DNA from: Microbotryomycetes sp. JL201
Taxonomy: Eukaryota; Basidiomycota; Microbotryomycetes
Reading direction: 5' to 3'
Length of the DNA stretch: 64,000 nt
Assembly: GCA_033819885.1 (NCBI GenBank)
Contig: JAQYUZ010000005.1
Location: forward strand, 1-64,000
Shown: piece by piece, positions 43,601 to 56,071 of the stretch
How the letters are laid out: every line of letters begins with the position of its first letter
How positions within the stretch are numbered: the first letter of the stretch is position 1
The notes under the pieces: model-generated
Databases searched by the model: none
Told to the model about the DNA's origin: nothing
The model's input: the letters and a program-made list of their open reading frames with translations, nothing else
Position numbers and translations under genes: made by a program

Positions 43601-46600
43601 CAAGCGCCTCGATGTGCAGGCTGCATCTCTCGCAGCTCTGTTGTCAACAAGCTAAGCCTGCAGACGGTAACAAGAACGACTTAGGGACCTTTTCTGCGCT
43701 CGAACGTGTGGCCTCTCGCTGCTCACCAGCGAAAAAGAATGTCTCTTTGAATCGAAGTCACGCTGGCAGAAGACCGTCGGGCTGGGCTGGCTTCCTCTCG
43801 CTTGAGGAACGGAATCAAGACATTGACCAGAACGTTGCCTCTCTCGGCGACATTTCCAACCATTGCAGATGTGTACCTGCAACCACGGATCATGTGAGCA
43901 CGTCAAATACGAAATTTGCTCGACGAAGCTTACTCGGTCAGTGAATTGTCAAGCATCATCCACTCGGCCGTCAAGGACGTCTCGACGGCAAACGGCCCTA
44001 AAGTCGTCCTGTCCGTCTGGGCCGTGTCTGGAGTCTGGATCAATTGAGGAGTGCTGAAAATGTCGGATGACCTCGAAGTACTGCGAGCGGCGTCGGTATC
44101 CGCATCTGTCGCATCCATTTGTGGCTTGTCGATTTGAGGGGTTGTGGTCGACAAGGACGAGGTTTGCTGTTGTCTGAGCATGGCACTTTGCACAAGCACG
44201 GGCGTCGCAGATCCTCTTGACAGACTTGGGGACACATCAATTTTCGGGCTTGCAGAAGATGATGATGTGCCGTCGGGTCGGACCACTCGCTGAGCAACGG
44301 CGACGGAGGCGTGGGACGGTAAAGCGGCCCCGTACACGCGTCGATCTATCTCATCGTCATCGTCGTAGCTAACGTCTTCGCTGTCCGATGATGTGACACT
44401 GCTTGGCGTCTCGGGCCGCGTGCTTCTCGAGGGCGCCCTGAACCCGGGCTGCACCTTCGTGTCACTCCGGTGTTGGACAGGCGACAGTTTCGAAGACGAA
44501 AATTCCTGTTGTCAACCTCGTATCAGCATCTTAGAGCGAGAGGACCTTGTGGCGCTCTGAACCTACTCGGTAGTCGTCACTGCCACTTTTGCGAGCTCCG
44601 TCTTTGCGCGACGACAACAAGTCGAATGACCTCCTTTCGCCTCTGTCCATACCACGGTCTCGGTTTTCAGCCTGTGTTGATTCAGTCTTGTCCTTTTTCT
44701 GCCAACTCGTCAACATGTCGGCGCTCTTTCTTGCGGCTGCTAAACTCATGCCCAACATGCTAGCTCCGACAGGGCCGCCTAATTTCGCTGCAGACGAGCG
44801 CCTTTGACTAGTCTCGCTCGCGTTTGTGCCACCTCCATTCAACAAGTTAGAGATGCTCGATCGTCTAGGTCGCTTGCCAAAAAGCTTGCCCGAAAGTCCA
44901 TTTCCGTCTTTGTTCGAGGCAGCAGATTTATCATCGACAGACATGTCTGAAGCAAACGCCGAAGACGGGTCGTTGCTGTTGCTGCCTATACTTCCGGCGC
45001 TGGACTTTCGGTTTCCAACGCCGCCGAGCTTGCCAAGTAATCTACGGCCAACAGACGTCGAAGGTTGACTTGCTGACGTGCTCAATTCGCCAAAACCTTT
45101 GTCGATTGGTACCGGATAAATAGATGCAGCTGAATTTGCTGCCGAAGAGCTCGATTCGGCCTCTGTGAAAGGCTTGCGTGTCGTCGTGGCCGAAACAACT
45201 TGAAACCCAGACGAACCACCGCCCTGATTCGCTCGAGCCCGTAGTTTGCTAAGCTGTTTACCGATAGATGTTCTTGAAGGTGAATTGCCAGGTGCTGCGT
45301 CCGTGGTGTCACCAGCACGTGCTTGTGCGCTATAACTCGTCCTTCTTTGCGGCGGCGGCGCGACAGAATTAGTTGGGGGCGGCGGGAGAGACTTGTCGAG
45401 AGACATGCCCGGCCGTCCATGGGATTGCGACGAAGTCAAAGACCGACCGCTTGTTGATGACGTGAGATCAGTCGGCCTCGAGTCGAAAGAACCCGCCATA
45501 CTTGACTCTAGCCTCGAACCAGTCCCAATGTCCACCGAAGGCCTCGTCGTGCGATCATCGCGGCGCGGAAGATCGAAAGACTCATTGTGGCGTCGACTGG
45601 ACGACTCGTCAGATGGTGCGGCTGATGAAGATGCAAATGACAGTAACGACGCGAGTGAGTTTTTGCGTCTTTTGGGAGCAGTCGATTGCGTTCGTGGCTC
45701 TTGTCTAGACGCAATCTGCTCCGAAGAGGTCGTCAATGCCGTCGCTGTCGGCGCAGACAGTGCAAGTTTGGGTTCGGGCTTGTTGAGTGCGATCGATTTT
45801 TCCAATTCGAGTTCCAACTCGAGCATCATGTCGACTTTGGGCGGTTCTTTGCGGCCAAGAGGCGTCGTGGCTCCACCTCTGCTTGGTACAAGACTGAGTG
45901 CTGCTCCGTCTGGACGCTGGAACGGCGGGTCCTGAACGATCGACGTCGTCGTCGGCGTCTCGACCGGGTTCGATGAATCAGCCGCTGCCAAATGCACCGC
46001 GTCAGGTCGACGTTCGGCCCTCGGAGTCGTCGCCGCCGCCGCATCCTCGTCGCCGCCAAGCTTGAGCAGGCTTGTCAAGTCAAACATCGTGCTTGAATTT
46101 GAAAAGTCGAGGTCAAGACTCAAGGTCGGAGGCGCCAGCGACGATAGGGCTGAAGATGACGAAACGCCGCTTGTAGACCTCGGCATATCAGAGCTCGGCC
46201 GCTCAACATCTCTTGCACCTCTGTATGACTCGATTCGCCGATTCCAGTCACTCGCTGCCGACGGACTTTGCGCCGGCAACACTGAACGTTGTTGCAGCAC
46301 AGGCGACTGCGTCGTCATGGTTGGCGAATTCGCTGGACTCGTGAAAGGAATCATTGACGGTTTTGCCTGGGTGTCGAGTGGCGCCCTGGAAAAGCTCGGC
46401 GGCCGTGGCAACGAAGTGCCTTGAGGCTTGCCGAGGCCGAGCTTGGAAGAGGACGTCGGAGAAGGACGATTGAGTAACACCTGTGCGTCTGGGGTCCGAG
46501 GCCTGGGTCGATCGAGGACAGAGCCTTTCCATTCCTTTGCAGGTGATGGAGCGGGCGTCGAACCGAGTTTGGACGGCGTCGAAGCAACAGATGGTGGTCC

Positions 46601-47683
46601 CGATGTAGACGCGTCGCTTCTCGTGGGTTTCGATGCCCGAGCAGGCGTGACGTGAGTGGTTCCAGCAAGGAACGTGCTTGCCAAATCTGGCGTCTTCGGC
46701 CTTGGCCTGTCCAAGACGGATGGCTTTGATGTCGAGGGCGACCTTGCTACGCCTTTGTCTGCCGCTTCACCGTCCGGCAATCTGGGTACTGTGTTCGTCA
46801 CGGTGCTTTGCGTGTCACGGCCGAATGAATCTTGCCGTCGAATCGGTGACGCTTGCGCTTCAGGTTGGAGCGATAAGTCGAGCGACTGATCTCGTGCCGT
46901 ATCGAATGAGAACGTTGGTCTGAGCAAGCCATCGCCGCCAGAGTTGTATTCAATTCGCGATGAACTGTCCTCGGCCCGGTCGGCTTGAATAGTCGTTTCG
47001 GCAGACGTACTTTGGCGAGAAGTTGCCGAGTTCGACAAAGTCGCATCTGGCGTTTTTGGGCGAGGTCTGTCGAGCACGGACGCTTGCAGAGAACCTGTCG
47101 CTGCAGGAGTGACGCTACTTTGTGGCGCGACCAGTCGGTCACGAGACTGCCGCCTGTCGGCCTGAAGACTTTTTGACATTGGTGCGTCGCCGTTCGTTCT
47201 CGAATCGTTTGACGTGCGCCGAGATGGGCGAGGTGCCTGAGTCGGTGACGGCAGCGGACTGCGCCTGGACGAATAGTCTGAGATGCGGGCTGGCAAGTTG
47301 ACAGTCATTCCGTTAGGGCCTTTCGACGAAGAAGGTGATACTGGCACGCCTGATTCGTGTGTAGATGAATGAGCTGTGCCGGGCACGATCGAATTGCTCG
47401 AGCGGCGAGGAGTCTGCGCACTCGTCTTGCTTGACAAAGGTTTCGGCCTCGAGCTCTGAACGCTCGTGCGCTGAGCCGACCTCGCGTTGTAGTTTGATGG
47501 GAACATGATTGATGATGGCGACGGCGAGGGCGACGGGCCATTGCTGGCACCATCTGATGGCGAATGGAGCGGACTGACAGCTTGGCCGTTGCTCAAACTC
47601 GCATGTCGCGTCGTCGTCGTATGCGTCAAGTCGAGCGCGGCGGGTGGACCTTTGCGTGGAGACTCGTTCGCTGAGCGGTACAT
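40616..47683 (-). CDS. giant DUF1765-like (UPF0592) fungal protein
   Basis: The longest gene here, probably over 2,000 residues. From MYRSANESPRKG (47683) one exon of about 3.1 kb encodes a Ser/Thr/Pro/Arg-rich disordered region. Phrases of the type SVLDRPRPKTPD recur about four times. Later exons hold YTSAMVGNVAERGNVLVNVL, EMQPAHRGACLESVAAIAE, KRDGLALAFFRIEGVAFKLL, AHLWSLCLRDMKSYLDLLLP, FSRMLPLWIRASMKRTSMWD, TRSVFILLDLIGAY, and ERMYLHWNAGVRGYFIRLLV followed by WRLSRLG. The tail DEWTDWVARLQEEEDEGRKH runs into a last exon ending SFEEGA. The helical C-terminal half resembles the fungal DUF1765/UPF0592 family (S. pombe SPAC7D4.03c), of unknown function. The linkage of all exons into one gene is inferred from phase and continuity. 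Confidence 0.72.
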
Positions 47684-48600
47684 GACCAAATCAGGCGCGT
47701 CAGGTCGGCGTCGGCGGCGGCGAGTGTGGCCGCGCGCCGCGTCGAGTCGTCCCCGTCGTCGCTGACGCAGAGATTTGAATACTCGGCGGTCTCTGTCAGG
47801 TTTGTACGAGGCGTGTTTGCTGAGTCGAGTGTGGTTCGCCCTGAGTATCGGCCGAGTGACGAGGCAAGAGTGCGAGGTGGCACGCCCGCCAATGAGCCAG
47901 AGCTGCAGCCCACTCGAGCGTGCACACAGCTGCAGACAAGCGAGCACAGAAGCATCATGTCAGTATCTGGCTATCTGCCAAGCTCTGTGTCTCGAGCTGG
48001 TGTGTGCAGTCGTTCAGGCGACGCTATCGCCGCAGACGCCTTCGACATTCATGCACAACTGACTGACCTCCGCAACAGAGCTGAACGATCGATGAAGCAG
48101 AGAGCGCAGAGAAAGAAGACGTGTGTGACGAGGACGAGAGCGAATGGCAATCAAACACCCGAGACCGGGAGCGGCGGGGACTTGGCTCCTGCAGTCGTCA
48201 TTCAGGTTTGTGCATATGTCATTTCAATCATTACAAGCTCGCCTGTGCGATGCAAACAGAAATACGGTACTCGACTTGACTGGACATCACCTTGTGACAA
48301 GGGGTCGACATGCGCAGCTCACTCCCGCCTTGCCATGACCCCATGATTAAAAACAGCCACGCGACCAAGGCGATCGTGGAACGCGCCGCGTCCAGGTTCC
48401 GCCGCTCGACTGATCTTTCGACAATGCACTACCTTTCGTTGCACTCAAGTCAGACTATATGTTATATAAACAAGTGTGTGATTGTGAACAAACTTGTAAT
48501 TCGTCAAAAGCAAAGAAGTGAAGGGGTATCCCTGCAAAGTCTATGTACAAGAAGTGGAGAATGCTCAGATATCAAAGGCACATAGGTCCTGGTTCGTTCT
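47684..48600. other. intergenic region, one doubtful frame
   Basis: 917 bp upstream of the giant gene and downstream of the Kex2 repeat gene. A plus-strand frame from an ATG near 47957 to 48346 begins MSVSGYLPSSVSRAGVCSRS and includes a basic helical stretch (RAERSMKQRAQRKK). It has no family and no clear splice signals and is not annotated as a gene. The stretch near 48440-48540 is AT-rich, as expected for a 3' flank or terminator of the minus-strand gene. Confidence 0.45.
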
Positions 48601-50582
48601 TTACAGTCGTCGGCGAGTGACACCCATGTCGAGACCTTCGAGCATGTCGGCCAAAGCGCGAGCGACTTCTTGGTGCGCGTGCTGAAAATGGACGATGACC
48701 ACACAAGTTCAGCTGCTGCTCGAGCTAGAAGAAAACAATTTTGTAATAAACACTCACGTCATCAGATCGTCGCATGACTTCTGACAACTTGTCAGCCAAA
48801 GCCTCTGTTCGCTTTGACAAGGATGCGAGAGAGACTATAAATCGCAGACAGACCAGGTCAGCCACTGTAAAGGGGAAGCGCACAGCGCTTCAGCATATGC
48901 GGAACATGAGACTGACCACCACCAACAGTCGTCTCCTCGGCTCGCTTCTTGATGGCGAGGATGGCGGCCTCGTCAGGCACAAACGAGCGTTCCTTCAAGT
49001 TGAGGCTGCCCTTCAAGTCACGAGCTCCGAGTCGACGAATGCCAACTTTTAAAGGACCCCAGTCGCGTCAGTAAAGTGTTGCCGCGCCAGCGTACGATGC
49101 GAGCTCATTCGACTCACGACCGCCCAACAATTGGTTCAAAAAGTTAGAGACTTCTTTGGCAAGTTCGACGTTGGCGTACAACGGCAAACCGAGAACACCT
49201 CCTTGGGGCACTGTGATGACGTCTTCAACTGCGCGTTTGCTCAAGTCGGCATCGAGAGCGGCAAAGTCGGGGTGGAAAGTGCGCTTTTCGACGTCGAACG
49301 TGCCAGGAATCGAGTCGCGCTTGCCAAGGTGAACTAGTGGGCACGTCAACAATCAGCTGACGAACTAAATCAAACTTATTGTATCTTCTCGCCGACTCAC
49401 GACCTCCCAGCAAGGAAGCGAGCACGTTTGAAATCTCTTGAGCCAATTCGACGTTGACGGCCAGAGGCAAGCCCAAAACTTGGCCTTGAGGGACAGTGAT
49501 GACGTCCTCGACAGCTCGCTTTGCCAAATCTTGACCAAACTCTTCAACAGATCGCTTGGCAATGTCGACAGTGACTGACACGGCCGGCAACCCATCGTGA
49601 GACATTGGAATAAAACGCAATAGAGAAGAAAAAGAACAACTCACTCTTGTCGGTAGGGTTGGGGCCGAGAGGAATTGGAATGTACAATCCAGTGTTGTTC
49701 TTTCCATCGCTAAAGATTTGAACATTCAGTGGCAAGAGATTGCCTTGAGGTGCGCCACCAATGATCTTGCTCAAATCGAGACCGAGCAAGCGCTTCTTGA
49801 GAACTTGGACATTGCCTGGATTCAGAACAATCAGAGATATTATTATGAACGGAAAAGAATTTTGTAACTGACCGTCAACGAGTTGGTTGCCGCCGAACTG
49901 AACGTCGAGGGGAAGTGTGATGCCGGTACCCAAGTTGTTGTCACCTAGGATGGCACCGTTGATGTTGATCGGAGGTTTGGTCGGGTCAGCGTTCGGGCCA
50001 ATGTTGATCAGATGGTTCAAGTCGAGGAACAAGGCGCGCTTCTTGAGTGCATCAACGGTGACTGTAACAAAAAGATTTGGTCAGAATTCAAGACGAAAGC
50101 CAAGCGACTTGATCCTGCCACGTACTCTGCTCTTGACCAACCGGGATTGGCAAATACAGACCGGTATTCTTGTTGCCATCGCTGAGTACTTTGATGCTGA
50201 GCGGTAGCAGATTGCCTTCAGGAGCTCCACCGACAACCTTGCTCAAGTCGATGCCGAGCAAGCGCTTCTCGTTTTGCTTCGAAAACAATACAGATGAGAT
50301 CCCCACAGTAGGTTTGACGAATGGAAGGATGCAGACACACCTGGACAGATTCAGGATGGACACGCTTGTCAAGTCGCTTGGGTCCACCATGGCGGCGCTG
50401 AACTCTTGCAAAGCCAGACTTGGCATCGGCCTGAACAACGTCGAGAAGTCAGCACGCAAGCGTCCAGTTCGGATCCCTGTAGGCCGACCTACTGAGCGAG
50501 CGACGTTCTCGTGCGTGGCCTCGGATTGAGCGACGGCAAGCGACGCGAAGGCGAGCGTGGCGAGCGTGGCGAAAGCTCGCAT
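48601..50582 (-). CDS. secreted Kex2-type repeat precursor
   Basis: Nine or so exons encode about 450 residues. The start MRAFATLATLAFASLAVAQS is a signal peptide. A pro-region follows with VQRRHGGPKRLDKRVHPE, three dibasic sites in a row. Modules come next, most bounded by KR. EKRLLGIDLSKVVGGAP and KKRLLGLDLSKIIGGAP are near copies sharing GNLLPL and NTGLY(L/I)PIP. KKRALFLDLNHLINIG is a diverged relative with GTGITLPLDVQFGG. AKRAVEDVITVPQG and SKRAVEDVITVPQG are another near-identical pair sharing VLGLPL. Short spacers such as KRSVEEFGQDLAKR and GKRDSIPGTFDVEKR lie between. Late KKR, SKR, MRR and TRRR sites precede the TAA. The modules contain no Cys. This is the plan of fungal Kex2-processed repeat proteins (Rep1-like repellents, pheromone-like precursors). 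The products are unknown. Confidence 0.82.
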
Positions 50583-52607: not shown

Positions 52608-55600
52608 TTACTGTTTGCTCGAACTTGTATTGACTGCATTAGCAAAGAGTATAACAGATCAGCTCGGAACGCCGCTCGCGCCTCTTGACAAGACTGAACA
52701 GACCGACTCACCGAAATGGTAATTGTAATTGAGCCTAACGGACAAGAACCTGGCATCGAGATCTGGTGCCTGACCGAGCTGCGTGATCAATGTGACGCTC
52801 ATCGCTCTGAATTCCGTCGAGTATTCCTCGAGTCGGTCTCTGATGCCGGTCAATTCGTCTGGATTCGAATTAAAGCCCGATGAAGGAATCGGAGAGTCGA
52901 TGCCCTGTAAAACAGACCAGAATTAGATTGCGCGCGCAGCTGACAGCCTTCGAGGTGAAACACTCACTCGACCGACGTCTCGCATCGTCTCTTGTCGTGA
53001 TGCCTCGGCCAAAGCATGATTGCACAACGAGTCCTGTAAAGTAGCAAGCGATCAGACGAAAAATTCTCAATAGTATGCAGGACACTGACTGCTGCCGTTC
53101 GATACTGCAGCATGAGTCTGAAAATTTGTCTGACTTGATCCAACAGCGGCATCGTCTGCGCAACAGTTCTTTAGCCAACCAAGTCTTGGTCCATTTTCAC
53201 ATCCGATCAGGCAACGACCTACGTCTCGCTTTGACGATTTTCTGCCATTCAATAACAAGGCCTTGCTGATCAATCTTTCCAAATAAGTCTGATGCGCCTC
53301 GATCAAGCCGTCCAAGCCGCCTTGCTTCTTGTCAACAAAGTCTTGCAAACTCTGCCACGAGCAACCGATCACTTCCAAGTGACAGTAATACTGCAATTGC
53401 CGAACGAAAAACAACATTTGTTGCAAAGCGATCCGAGTGCGGTGAAAGTCGTCGACCAAGTCTTCGACTCTGAGAAACGTTCGAGCGCCAGTCATCAACC
53501 GTCGTTGAACATTGTTAAGCGAGTGTTCGACTCGTTTGATTTGCCACAAGTGTCGAAACATTCTCTGATAGCCAAGCATGCTTTTCGGGTCCAAGACCGT
53601 ATCAAGTGGCGCCTCGACTTTATACTCGAGGGTGAAGACATCCCAGCCAATCTCGCCTTGATTGAATTCGAGCATGCGAGCGTCAAGGCGTCTGACAGTG
53701 TCTGATTGATAGTCAAAATCTGCCATCGAACCTTTGAGAGCCGTTTCGAGCGTCCCGGTCAAGTTATGGCGATACAGCAGGTTCGCTGGACGGTCAAGTG
53801 ACGGCCTATCCGAGCGAATACGTCAGGAGTCGGCGGGCGACGAGATAAGTTGCGGTCTCAGACATTGACTGACCCAAGATTTTCCATCAATATCTCGACA
53901 AAGTCGCCCTTGCCAAGCAGCAAGTAATCTTTCAAAGCCGCAAGGTGATCCATGAGGCGAAACTTGTCGAAAAAGATGTCGAACAGTCTTTGCGATGCGC
54001 TCGAGTACGCGAGCGAGATAGATCTTTCGAGTCCAGCCATGTTGTCGTACTCGAGAGCTGACAAGAAGCAAGTCAGAGGCGCCGTTCTACCTACACAGCC
54101 GGATTCAAACGGCTTACTGTGCCTGCCGTCCGACATGTTGCGTTCAGTGACCCAGGCCGCGTCCTGACAGCTGTGCTTCATAAAGTTCAGTGACTTGCCC
54201 GTTGAAAAGATCTGCGCAAACATGACGCAACAAGTGAGCAAAATTTGTCCGGTCCGAGCGGGCCAGATTCAGCACTGACTTTGCGGCCGAATGCCTCTTC
54301 TAAAAAGCTCGGCAGCATCTCGCGTCTGAATGTGAATTTGCTTTCCCACAATTCGTGCGCCTTGACACCTTGACGGTCACTGAAACTTTGATCATCGCCT
54401 TCTGCACCGTTACCAGCACCACCACCTCTGATTTCTCCAACCTCGCCCAACCCAGGCTCGTTCCACCTTCGTTCGCCGCCGTCCAGCGCAGGGTTCAATT
54501 CTACAAAAAACTCGTTGAATGGGTCCTTGAGCTCTCCTTCGTAGATCCAGGCCGACAATGTCCCGAAGAATGGTACGCATACAGTCTTGAGCAACCGCGA
54601 GCTGAACTCGCGAACGAATGGGTCGCCATTGGACGTATGGGCGTGGATGCTCGACAAGAGTGCTCCACCGACGTTGTTGCCTAACGATATGAGATCGTCT
54701 TGTCTCAGTCACATTCAGACAAGTGACATTTGAGACGGCATGGCTTACCACCAGCTGTTTCTACGAGTGCTCCCATCATGCGCATCCGAAGCTTGACATC
54801 CTCCGTCCATACGAGCAGCCTTCTCAACGTCAGCCCACTGCCAAAGCCGGATGGTGTCGCGTCATCGTTCTGCTCTAAGGATACATCGTCTTGCGGATCG
54901 TTTTCGAGCTGTCCTTGCAGGATCGCCACCAATCGGAAATACTCTGTCATCTCTGCCTTGAGAGCCGCATACAAGCTTTGTTCCACAGCTCCAGTGCTCT
55001 GAGTGGGTTTCACACCCGTGCTCGTAGGCATGGCTGCTTTGCCCAGTCTGTTTCGTCGCAAGGGCTTTACGTTATCGTCATTTGCACCGATCCTGCTCTG
55101 CACTTGTCTGTAAAGCCCACCCATCTCTGCCAAAGTTTGTAGCAAGACCTGTGTCGGAGGAGTAATGTCGTAACCCGTTCCTTCAAGGTGCAATTCGATT
55201 CCGTGACGACTTTCTTGCTCGACATCATTTTGGTCAGCAGGTTCCTGCTTCGATCGTTTTGAGCGTCTGGCAGTCTTTTTGAATTTGACAAATTGTCCGT
55301 CGACGCCTTGCAAGATGTACAAGACATCACGCAAAAGGAGCTGCTCTGGCACGAGCGGCAACAAGCTCGATTGTCCGCCCTCGCCCACGTTTGGGGTCAT
55401 GATTCTTTGCCCTCGATGTTCGGCAATCAATTTCGCCATTGGCATCTTTGAAGCTCTCCGTCTGGTCAAGCTGGGCTGATCTGGCATTGCTGAATCCGTT
55501 GGTCTGTGCAGTGGAGGCTGCGAGTTGCTCGATCCCGTTGGGGGATGGAAGAAAGCAGGCCCTTCACGTGGCAGACCAGTGTGTAGAGCTGACTTTGACG

Positions 55601-56071
55601 CCGAATCGGCCGTATTGCGAACGTGATCTGTCGAGCGTCTCGAGCTAGCCGTTGTCGTCGATAACGGTTCTGGATACGAAGGACCAACAATGTGGACCGA
55701 CGACGATGACGAGGCCAATGGCTGACGATGTATCTGAAAGGATTGTGCGGAACACGAATCAGCGCTAGGCGACGAGGCGAGTGAGAAGGCCGCACATTCG
55801 ACGAGGCGGACGCGGTCATCTTGGATGAGCCCTGTGCAACACCACTGCCCGGTCTGCGGCCTGAATGGAGGTAAAGGTGTCAGATCGAGTGCTTCTTCTG
55901 TCCACCTGAGCGCAACAGTGCCGTCGAACGATGACCGCTGCCCATTGTTGACACAACTGCGCACGGGCCTTGTCTCCACAACAGGTGATTGCAAGCGGGT
56001 CGGGACTTGCCTTGGCCTGTACCGTCACTCTTTTGCGAGTAGTTGGACGTTGCAGAAGGAGGTCGCGCCAT
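52608..56071 (-). CDS. gamma-tubulin complex component 2
   Basis: GCP2 (Spc97/Alp4 family) nucleates microtubules with GCP3 and gamma-tubulin at the spindle pole body. A Ser/Pro-rich N-terminus leads to the GRIP1 region: LLLRDVLYILQGVDGQFVKF, QTLAEMGGLYRQVQSRIG, KAEMTEYFRLVAILQGQLEN, LLVWTEDVKLRMRMMGALVE, SRLLKTVCVPFFGTLSAWIY and GKSLNFMKHSCQDAAW. GRIP2 has FDKFRLMDHLAALKDYLLLG, GDFVEILMENLG, WDVFTLEYKVEAPLDTVLDP, YQRMFRHLWQIKRVEHSLNN and LNYNYHF near the end. The last small exon gives VNTSSSKQ and a TAA at 52608. An ATG at 56071 (MARPPSATSNYSQK) is the likely start, but its junction to the next exon was not resolved. Confidence 0.9.

Follow-up and report, generated by a model that had tools for sequence, protein, structure and literature searches.

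Kex2-framed peptide precursors that carry a leader are a known class, the KEPs (Le Marquer 2019, Umemura 2020, and Vogt 2022; PMC6339444, PMC7329392, and PMC9769878). The class includes pheromones, mycotoxins, and candidate effectors (PMC6339444), and the function of most members is unknown (PMC9769878). No homolog was found for 2560 of 7878 KEPs (PMC7329392), so an unfamiliar module is by itself unremarkable. Likewise, among 1193 precursors, two core types were present in 77 and three in 2 (PMC6339444), so two core kinds in one precursor are not new. Both surveys (PMC6339444, PMC7329392) require at least three similar repeats. In Ustilago maydis Rep1, 12 imperfect amphipathic repeats of 34 to 55 aa with Kex2 sites give rise to surface-active fibrils, and Hum3 has imperfect amphipathic repeats of 31 to 36 aa with Kex2 sites between them together with a hydrophobin domain (PMC4617103). 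The Rep1 repeats are called strongly conserved (PMC2515848).

The locus described herein lies in the first 64,000 nucleotides of contig JAQYUZ010000005.1 of Microbotryomycetes sp. JL201 (GCA_033819885.1), a stretch referred to below as the window. It holds a frame with dibasic sites and repeated modules, among which there are two clear duplications, and the same genome holds a kexin-like gene. Most probably, as judged from these features, the gene product is a Kex2-cut multi-peptide precursor. In common with KEPs, it has a likely leader, cores framed by KR or RR, a kexin-like gene in the genome, and a core length within the survey limits; unlike them, its modules are long, diverged, and each largely on its own exon. 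Rep1 is the closest parallel, the likeness to Rep1 and Hum3 being one of build (imperfect Kex2-framed repeats). In contrast to both, the locus has fewer copies, five, and these are of two kinds that are not detectably related. In addition, the repeats of Rep1 are strongly conserved (PMC2515848) whereas the modules here are diverged, and the hydrophobin domain of Hum3 has no counterpart in the five frames that we scanned. Ascomycete alpha-type pheromone precursors share the leader and the Kex2-framed repeats, but the peptides here are far longer and lack Ste13-type X-A or X-P starts. The precursors of dikaritin (ustiloxin-type) RiPPs also consist of a leader and Kex2-framed cores; dikaritin cores are short and cyclic, whereas the cores here are long.

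Layout of the predicted precursor

The coordinates of the locus are collected in Table 1. Splice sites were picked by hand from the sequence alone, giving nine introns (57 to 82 nt, all GT..AG) and 10 exons that join into 455 codons without a stop. This continuity supports the proposal that the region is one gene, and we take it to be a single real gene on the minus strand. In the splice model used, the product contains neither cysteine nor tryptophan, in agreement with the expectation of Cys-free peptides. Its N terminus is a hydrophobic leader with an AVA/QS end, read by eye, as expected for the signal peptide that had been proposed.

Table 1. Features of the locus on the minus strand. aa, residues of the 455-residue product.
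Feature	Position	Strand	Basis or comment
Whole coding region	48601..50582	-	10 exons, 455 aa; ATG at 50582, stop codon ending at 48601
Exons 1-10	50582-50493, 50430-50341, 50276-50126, 50061-49873, 49815-49645, 49574-49401, 49333-49118, 49045-48917, 48834-48758, 48681-48601	-	hand-made splice model
Likely signal peptide, residues 1-18, MRAFATLATLAFASLAVA	50529..50582	-	by eye; cleavage expected before QSEAT
Pro-region with QRR, PKR, DKR, and EKR, containing introns 1 and 2	50262..50528	-	frame and site count
m1, type A, aa 66-119, LLGIDLSK...DALKKR	50036..50261	-	across intron 3
m2, type A, diverged, aa 120-182, ALFLDLNH...VLKKR	49790..50035	-	across intron 4
m3, type A, aa 183-238, LLGLDLSK...DIAKR	49552..49789	-	across intron 5
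Spacer peptide SVEEFGQDLAKR, aa 239-250	49516..49551	-	cut at dibasic sites
m4, type B, aa 251-294, AVEDVITV...LGKR	49317..49515	-	across intron 6
Two spacer peptides, aa 295-306 and 307-322	49233..49316	-	cut at dibasic sites
m5, type B, aa 323-365, AVEDVITV...GIRR	49032..49232	-	across intron 7
C-terminal segments c1, c2, and c3, aa 366-426, candidate segments between dibasic sites	48767..49031	-	
C-terminal segment c4, aa 427-453, across intron 9	48610..48766	-	17-residue piece like C-terminal part of m4

The dibasic sites argue for processing. All three sites that the original prediction named in the pro-region are present, and a fourth, EKR, lies beside them. The 437 residues that follow the leader contain 17 [KR]R sites, as compared to a mean of 3.1 and a maximum of 10 in 20,000 shuffles. 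For KR alone, 12 sites were counted against 1.6 expected and a shuffle maximum of 7 (20,000 shuffles). The fragments considered here result from cuts after every [KR]R, and it is therefore true by construction that each starts after a site and has no site inside. It is not by construction that paired modules begin at the same residue after KR, with LLG.DLSK at the start of two and AVEDVITV at the start of two others. Several peptide cores are thus framed by dibasic sites, as in KEPs. Including the basic residues, m1 to m5 measure 54, 63, 56, 44, and 43 residues (260 of 455 in sum).

Two kinds of module and the growth of the array

The modules fall into two kinds, A (m1, m2, and m3) and B (m4 and m5), between which relatedness is not detectable. 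The 21 pairs among seven segments (m1 to m5, c1, and c4) were aligned and compared with 2000 shuffles. The scores of m1/m3 and m4/m5 are far above the others, and m2 groups with m1 and m3. The m1/m2 score was reached by 17 and 8 of 20,000 shuffles of either partner and the m2/m3 score by 64 and 121 of 20,000, and a gapped alignment presents m1, m2, and m3 as three related copies. All six A-B pairs score at a level that 265 to 934 of 2000 shuffles also attain. When the profiles of A and B were compared, the aligned part was a PQG..LPL piece of 12 columns, with a probability of 1.2% and an E of 0.043. A and B may share an origin, although neither the profiles nor the pairwise scores establish it.

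The original prediction had derived all five modules from one ancestral module with a common LPL core. The five cores that it quoted (NLLPLSIKV, NLLPLNVQI, ITLPLDVQF, GLPLAVNVE, and GLPLYANVE) are all present, but this derivation found no support, since the A-B pairs score at shuffle level and the LPL register differs. Specifically, ITLPLDV of m2 aligns with the LYLPIPV end of m1 and m3 and not with their NLLPL, and the supposed common core therefore mixes two places. The tripeptide LPL itself occurs five times against 0.49 expected, a count reached by 2 of 20,000 shuffles. Four of the five lie within the two duplicated pairs; a count of three was reached by 259 of 20,000 shuffles.

Duplication itself is backed by sequence for the clear pairs. 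Two close pairs do exist, but to call them near identical, as had been done, overstates the identity, which is 29 of 42 residues for m1/m3 (ungapped part) and 31 of 39 for m4/m5. At the codon level, first, second, and third positions are identical at 30, 41, and 16 of 42 codons in m1/m3 and at 27, 34, and 18 of 39 in m4/m5. Third positions hold 26 of the 39 base differences in m1/m3 and 21 of the 38 in m4/m5. NG86 estimates gave a dN of 0.16 for m1/m3, with dS not calculable, and a dN of 0.22 and a dS of 2.18 for m4/m5. Since the differences lie mainly at third codon positions, both pairs appear to be coding duplicates under constraint, and we regard the third-position pattern as the best evidence that the module exons are real. 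Type B perhaps has a scrap in the last exon as well. A 17-residue piece of c4, encoded mostly by exon 10, aligns with m4 at a score of 43 that was reached by 0 of 20,000 shuffles either way; the match of c4 to m5 is weaker and in another register (168 and 547 of 20,000 shuffles as good). Of the three segments before c4, c1 and c3 were aligned with modules and gave no convincing match.

The arrangement of the introns suggests a route by which the array could have grown. Each module is largely on its own exon, and the six consecutive introns from the exon 3/4 to the exon 8/9 junction are all in phase 1. Both m1 and m3 are interrupted within the Ile codon of ITVD, and both m4 and m5 within the Leu codon that follows LLGG. 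Exons between phase-1 introns would be units that can be copied without damage to the frame, and from this layout we infer exon duplication as the simplest history of the array. The introns at like places bear no trace of duplication (601 of 2000 shuffles are as alike for introns 3 and 5, and 125 of 2000 for introns 6 and 7). Exons 4 and 6 begin with similar protein sequence, yet their DNA there is not alike (887 of 2000 shuffles as good). The donor sites of introns 6 and 7 both lie within a 21-nt repeat (49110-49130 and 49393-49413, 90% identity). The copied unit may have reached into the intron, but the likeness of these two introns ends after 8 bases, most of which belong to the donor consensus. 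In general, an exon-by-module layout with phase-1 introns suggests how such arrays grow.

To place the locus relative to the published surveys, a Le Marquer-type rule was imitated with an assumed background, single-sequence motifs, and two one-residue fragments dropped. This approximate imitation returned groups of two plus two only, where three repeats are needed; m1 matched m2 at p 0.001, short of the limit of 1e-4. Such surveys may therefore miss this gene. The repeat length of 43 to 63 aa, basic residues included, is within the 8 to 100 aa of the Umemura rule (PMC7329392). Strict survey membership among the KEPs is not claimed, the imitation being approximate and of the Le Marquer rule only. 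More broadly, precursors built from a small number of long and diverged modules that belong to two kinds may be undercounted.

Processing machinery and searches for relatives

The genome assembly (17.15 Mb, 92 contigs) was searched for enzymes that could act on such a precursor. The proprotein-convertase P-domain typical of Kex2 has a single match, in a frame (L003, 40-2487) that carries Peptidase_S8 together with the P-domain. The best PDB match of this frame is yeast kexin (E 4.9e-160), to which its D, H, and S stretches align; these presumably hold the catalytic residues. A stretch resembling a transmembrane segment and an acidic tail can also be made out by eye; the frame as listed shows no leader. 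The Kex2 protease expected in the genome of a KEP producer is thus represented by this kexin-like gene. The kexin, together with the short introns and the size of the genome, points to a fungus. Serine carboxypeptidases (S10) matched in three places, and a Kex1 may be among them. One place matched a dipeptidyl-peptidase IV-type gene. The modules start with LL, AL, LL, AV, and AV, and as none of the five begins with X-A or X-P, the form seen in pheromone precursors, Ste13-type trimming is not expected.

The proposal that the module belongs to no described family agrees with the searches of known families, but it lends the locus little distinction, new modules being usual among KEPs. The five frames covering exons 3 to 8 (exons 1, 2, 9, and 10 lie outside) matched 0 Pfam and NCBIfam families at E up to 1. 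Against PDB profiles, type A had one match at E 1.1 and type B three at E 0.48 to 2.2, with none below 0.48, and these were disregarded. Within the genome, where the best candidates were scored and m3 and exons 1, 2, 9, and 10 were not among the protein queries, no second gene copy was found with m1 (E up to 0.001), m5 (E up to 1), or m2, exon 8, and m4 (E up to 10 for these three); every match was to this gene. The query m2 finds m3 at E 0.105 only. Neither hydrophobin nor UstYa (DUF3328) had a match in the genome, in searches run without a positive control, and this absence is given no weight.

Relatives of the modules would be in fungal proteomes, and we do not claim orphan status from searches of the genome and of prokaryotic and viral contigs. 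In prokaryote genome contigs, type A gave 37 stretches with 0 confirmed, and in viral contigs type B gave 29 with 0 confirmed. Type A gave 27 stretches in viral contigs, one of which was confirmed (L010); this 25-residue match runs antisense to an open frame in a contig that looks phage-like by eye, and it was set aside as chance. Modules A and B were not met in the part of the literature on KEX2-processed repeats since 2020 that was covered, and their absence from print is not claimed.

Predicted fate of the peptides and alternative readings

From the features above we infer a route of expression, cleavage, trimming, and secretion. The precursor would enter the ER by its leader and be cut by Kex2 after KR and RR in the late Golgi, and a Kex1-type carboxypeptidase would then trim the C-terminal Lys and Arg residues. 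Five linear Cys-free peptides of 41 to 60 residues, three of type A and two of type B, would be released along with short spacers, from an array that would have grown as exons flanked by phase-1 introns were copied. The idea of a Kex2-type multi-peptide precursor, as originally put forward, is supported by the dibasic sites and the kexin-like gene.

The job of the peptides is less certain. The most likely one would be structural, with acidic, rather hydrophobic peptides settling on the cell wall or surface as Rep1 peptides do; this role is a guess that draws on composition and on the analogy to Rep1. The net charge of m1 to m5 ranges from -1 to -4 and their GRAVY from 0.21 to 0.90. We give the combination of a Kex2-cut precursor with a wall or surface role an even chance, and the prospect that the peptides have measurable surface activity falls somewhat short of even. 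Precursor and cutting would be the same if the peptides instead acted on other cells, whether as signals, as secreted effectors, or as antimicrobials; this alternative, which the range of functions reported among KEPs favors, is less likely.

The amphipathicity of the segments bears on this alternative. Seven segments were put through two tests each. A helical amphipathic stretch was detected in the second half of m5 (p 0.001) and m4 (p 0.036), and another in c4 (p 0.005), all with 1000 shuffles and uncorrected. Type B may therefore end in an amphipathic helix. Helical amphipathic stretches are common in membrane-active peptides, which speaks for action on other cells. Most membrane-lytic peptides are not net acidic, whereas the peptides here are. 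In addition, their 43 to 63 residues exceed the 9 to 24 aa of alpha-type pheromone peptides (PMC6339444), and an X-A or X-P start occurs in 0 of 5 modules.

The peptides had also been described as beta-prone. Beta amphipathicity was above shuffles in 0 of 7 segments (lowest p 0.133; p 0.13 to 0.33 for m1 to m5), and m4 and m5 have the helical signal instead. An amyloid reading accordingly has no direct support, because beta amphipathicity is no higher than in shuffles. Aggregation-prone stretches in m1 to m5 number 3, 1, 3, 3, and 2 on an aggregation scale applied without a null.

It is improbable that the protein stays uncut in life, as one repetitive secreted or wall protein in which the dibasic sites are linkers or in which the pro-region alone is cut. 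Some dibasic sites do lie in the non-modular C-terminal part, as this reading would allow, but it does not account for the excess of sites over expectation (17 vs 3.1) or for homologous modules that begin at the same residue after KR, and the genome has a kexin-like gene. Returning to the cut precursor, a specific version of its surface role is a film of two components at a fixed 3:2 ratio of A to B. Here, two unrelated peptide kinds from one gene would assemble together: A would form the sheet, B, sheet-forming at its front and helical at its tail, would be the anchor, and exon duplication would set the ratio; we hold this picture to be quite doubtful.

The weak points of the splice model are the acceptors of introns 7 and 8. 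The acceptor of intron 7 is unusual (TTTAAAAG), and intron 8 has two possible acceptors, of which the alternative one adds a short stretch that includes a cysteine. It is nevertheless very unlikely that a wrong splice model has fused separate genes or pieced together a decayed pseudogene, as the hand-chosen sites, these two acceptors, and an exon 6 frame that is open upstream to 49725, with methionines there and in intron 5, might suggest, since the ten exons hold the frame without a stop, no obvious hydrophobic leader follows any of those methionines (by eye), the upstream frame mostly overlaps exon 5 in another reading frame, and codon positions are conserved between modules. Intron 4 (49816-49872, 57 nt) is itself in frame and stop-free; if retained, it would lengthen m2 by 19 residues, among which Ile, Leu, and Phe are abundant.

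The window contains no tRNAs and no Rfam families. Downstream of the gene, an uninterrupted minus-strand frame at 44531-47947 encodes 1138 aa, is Ser-rich by eye, and has no Pfam match. On the other side, a divergent neighboring frame at 51543-52085 matches DUF1168 (PF06658, E 9.8e-17), and two minus-strand frames at 53067-55994 match gamma-tubulin complex component domains, C-terminal and N-terminal.
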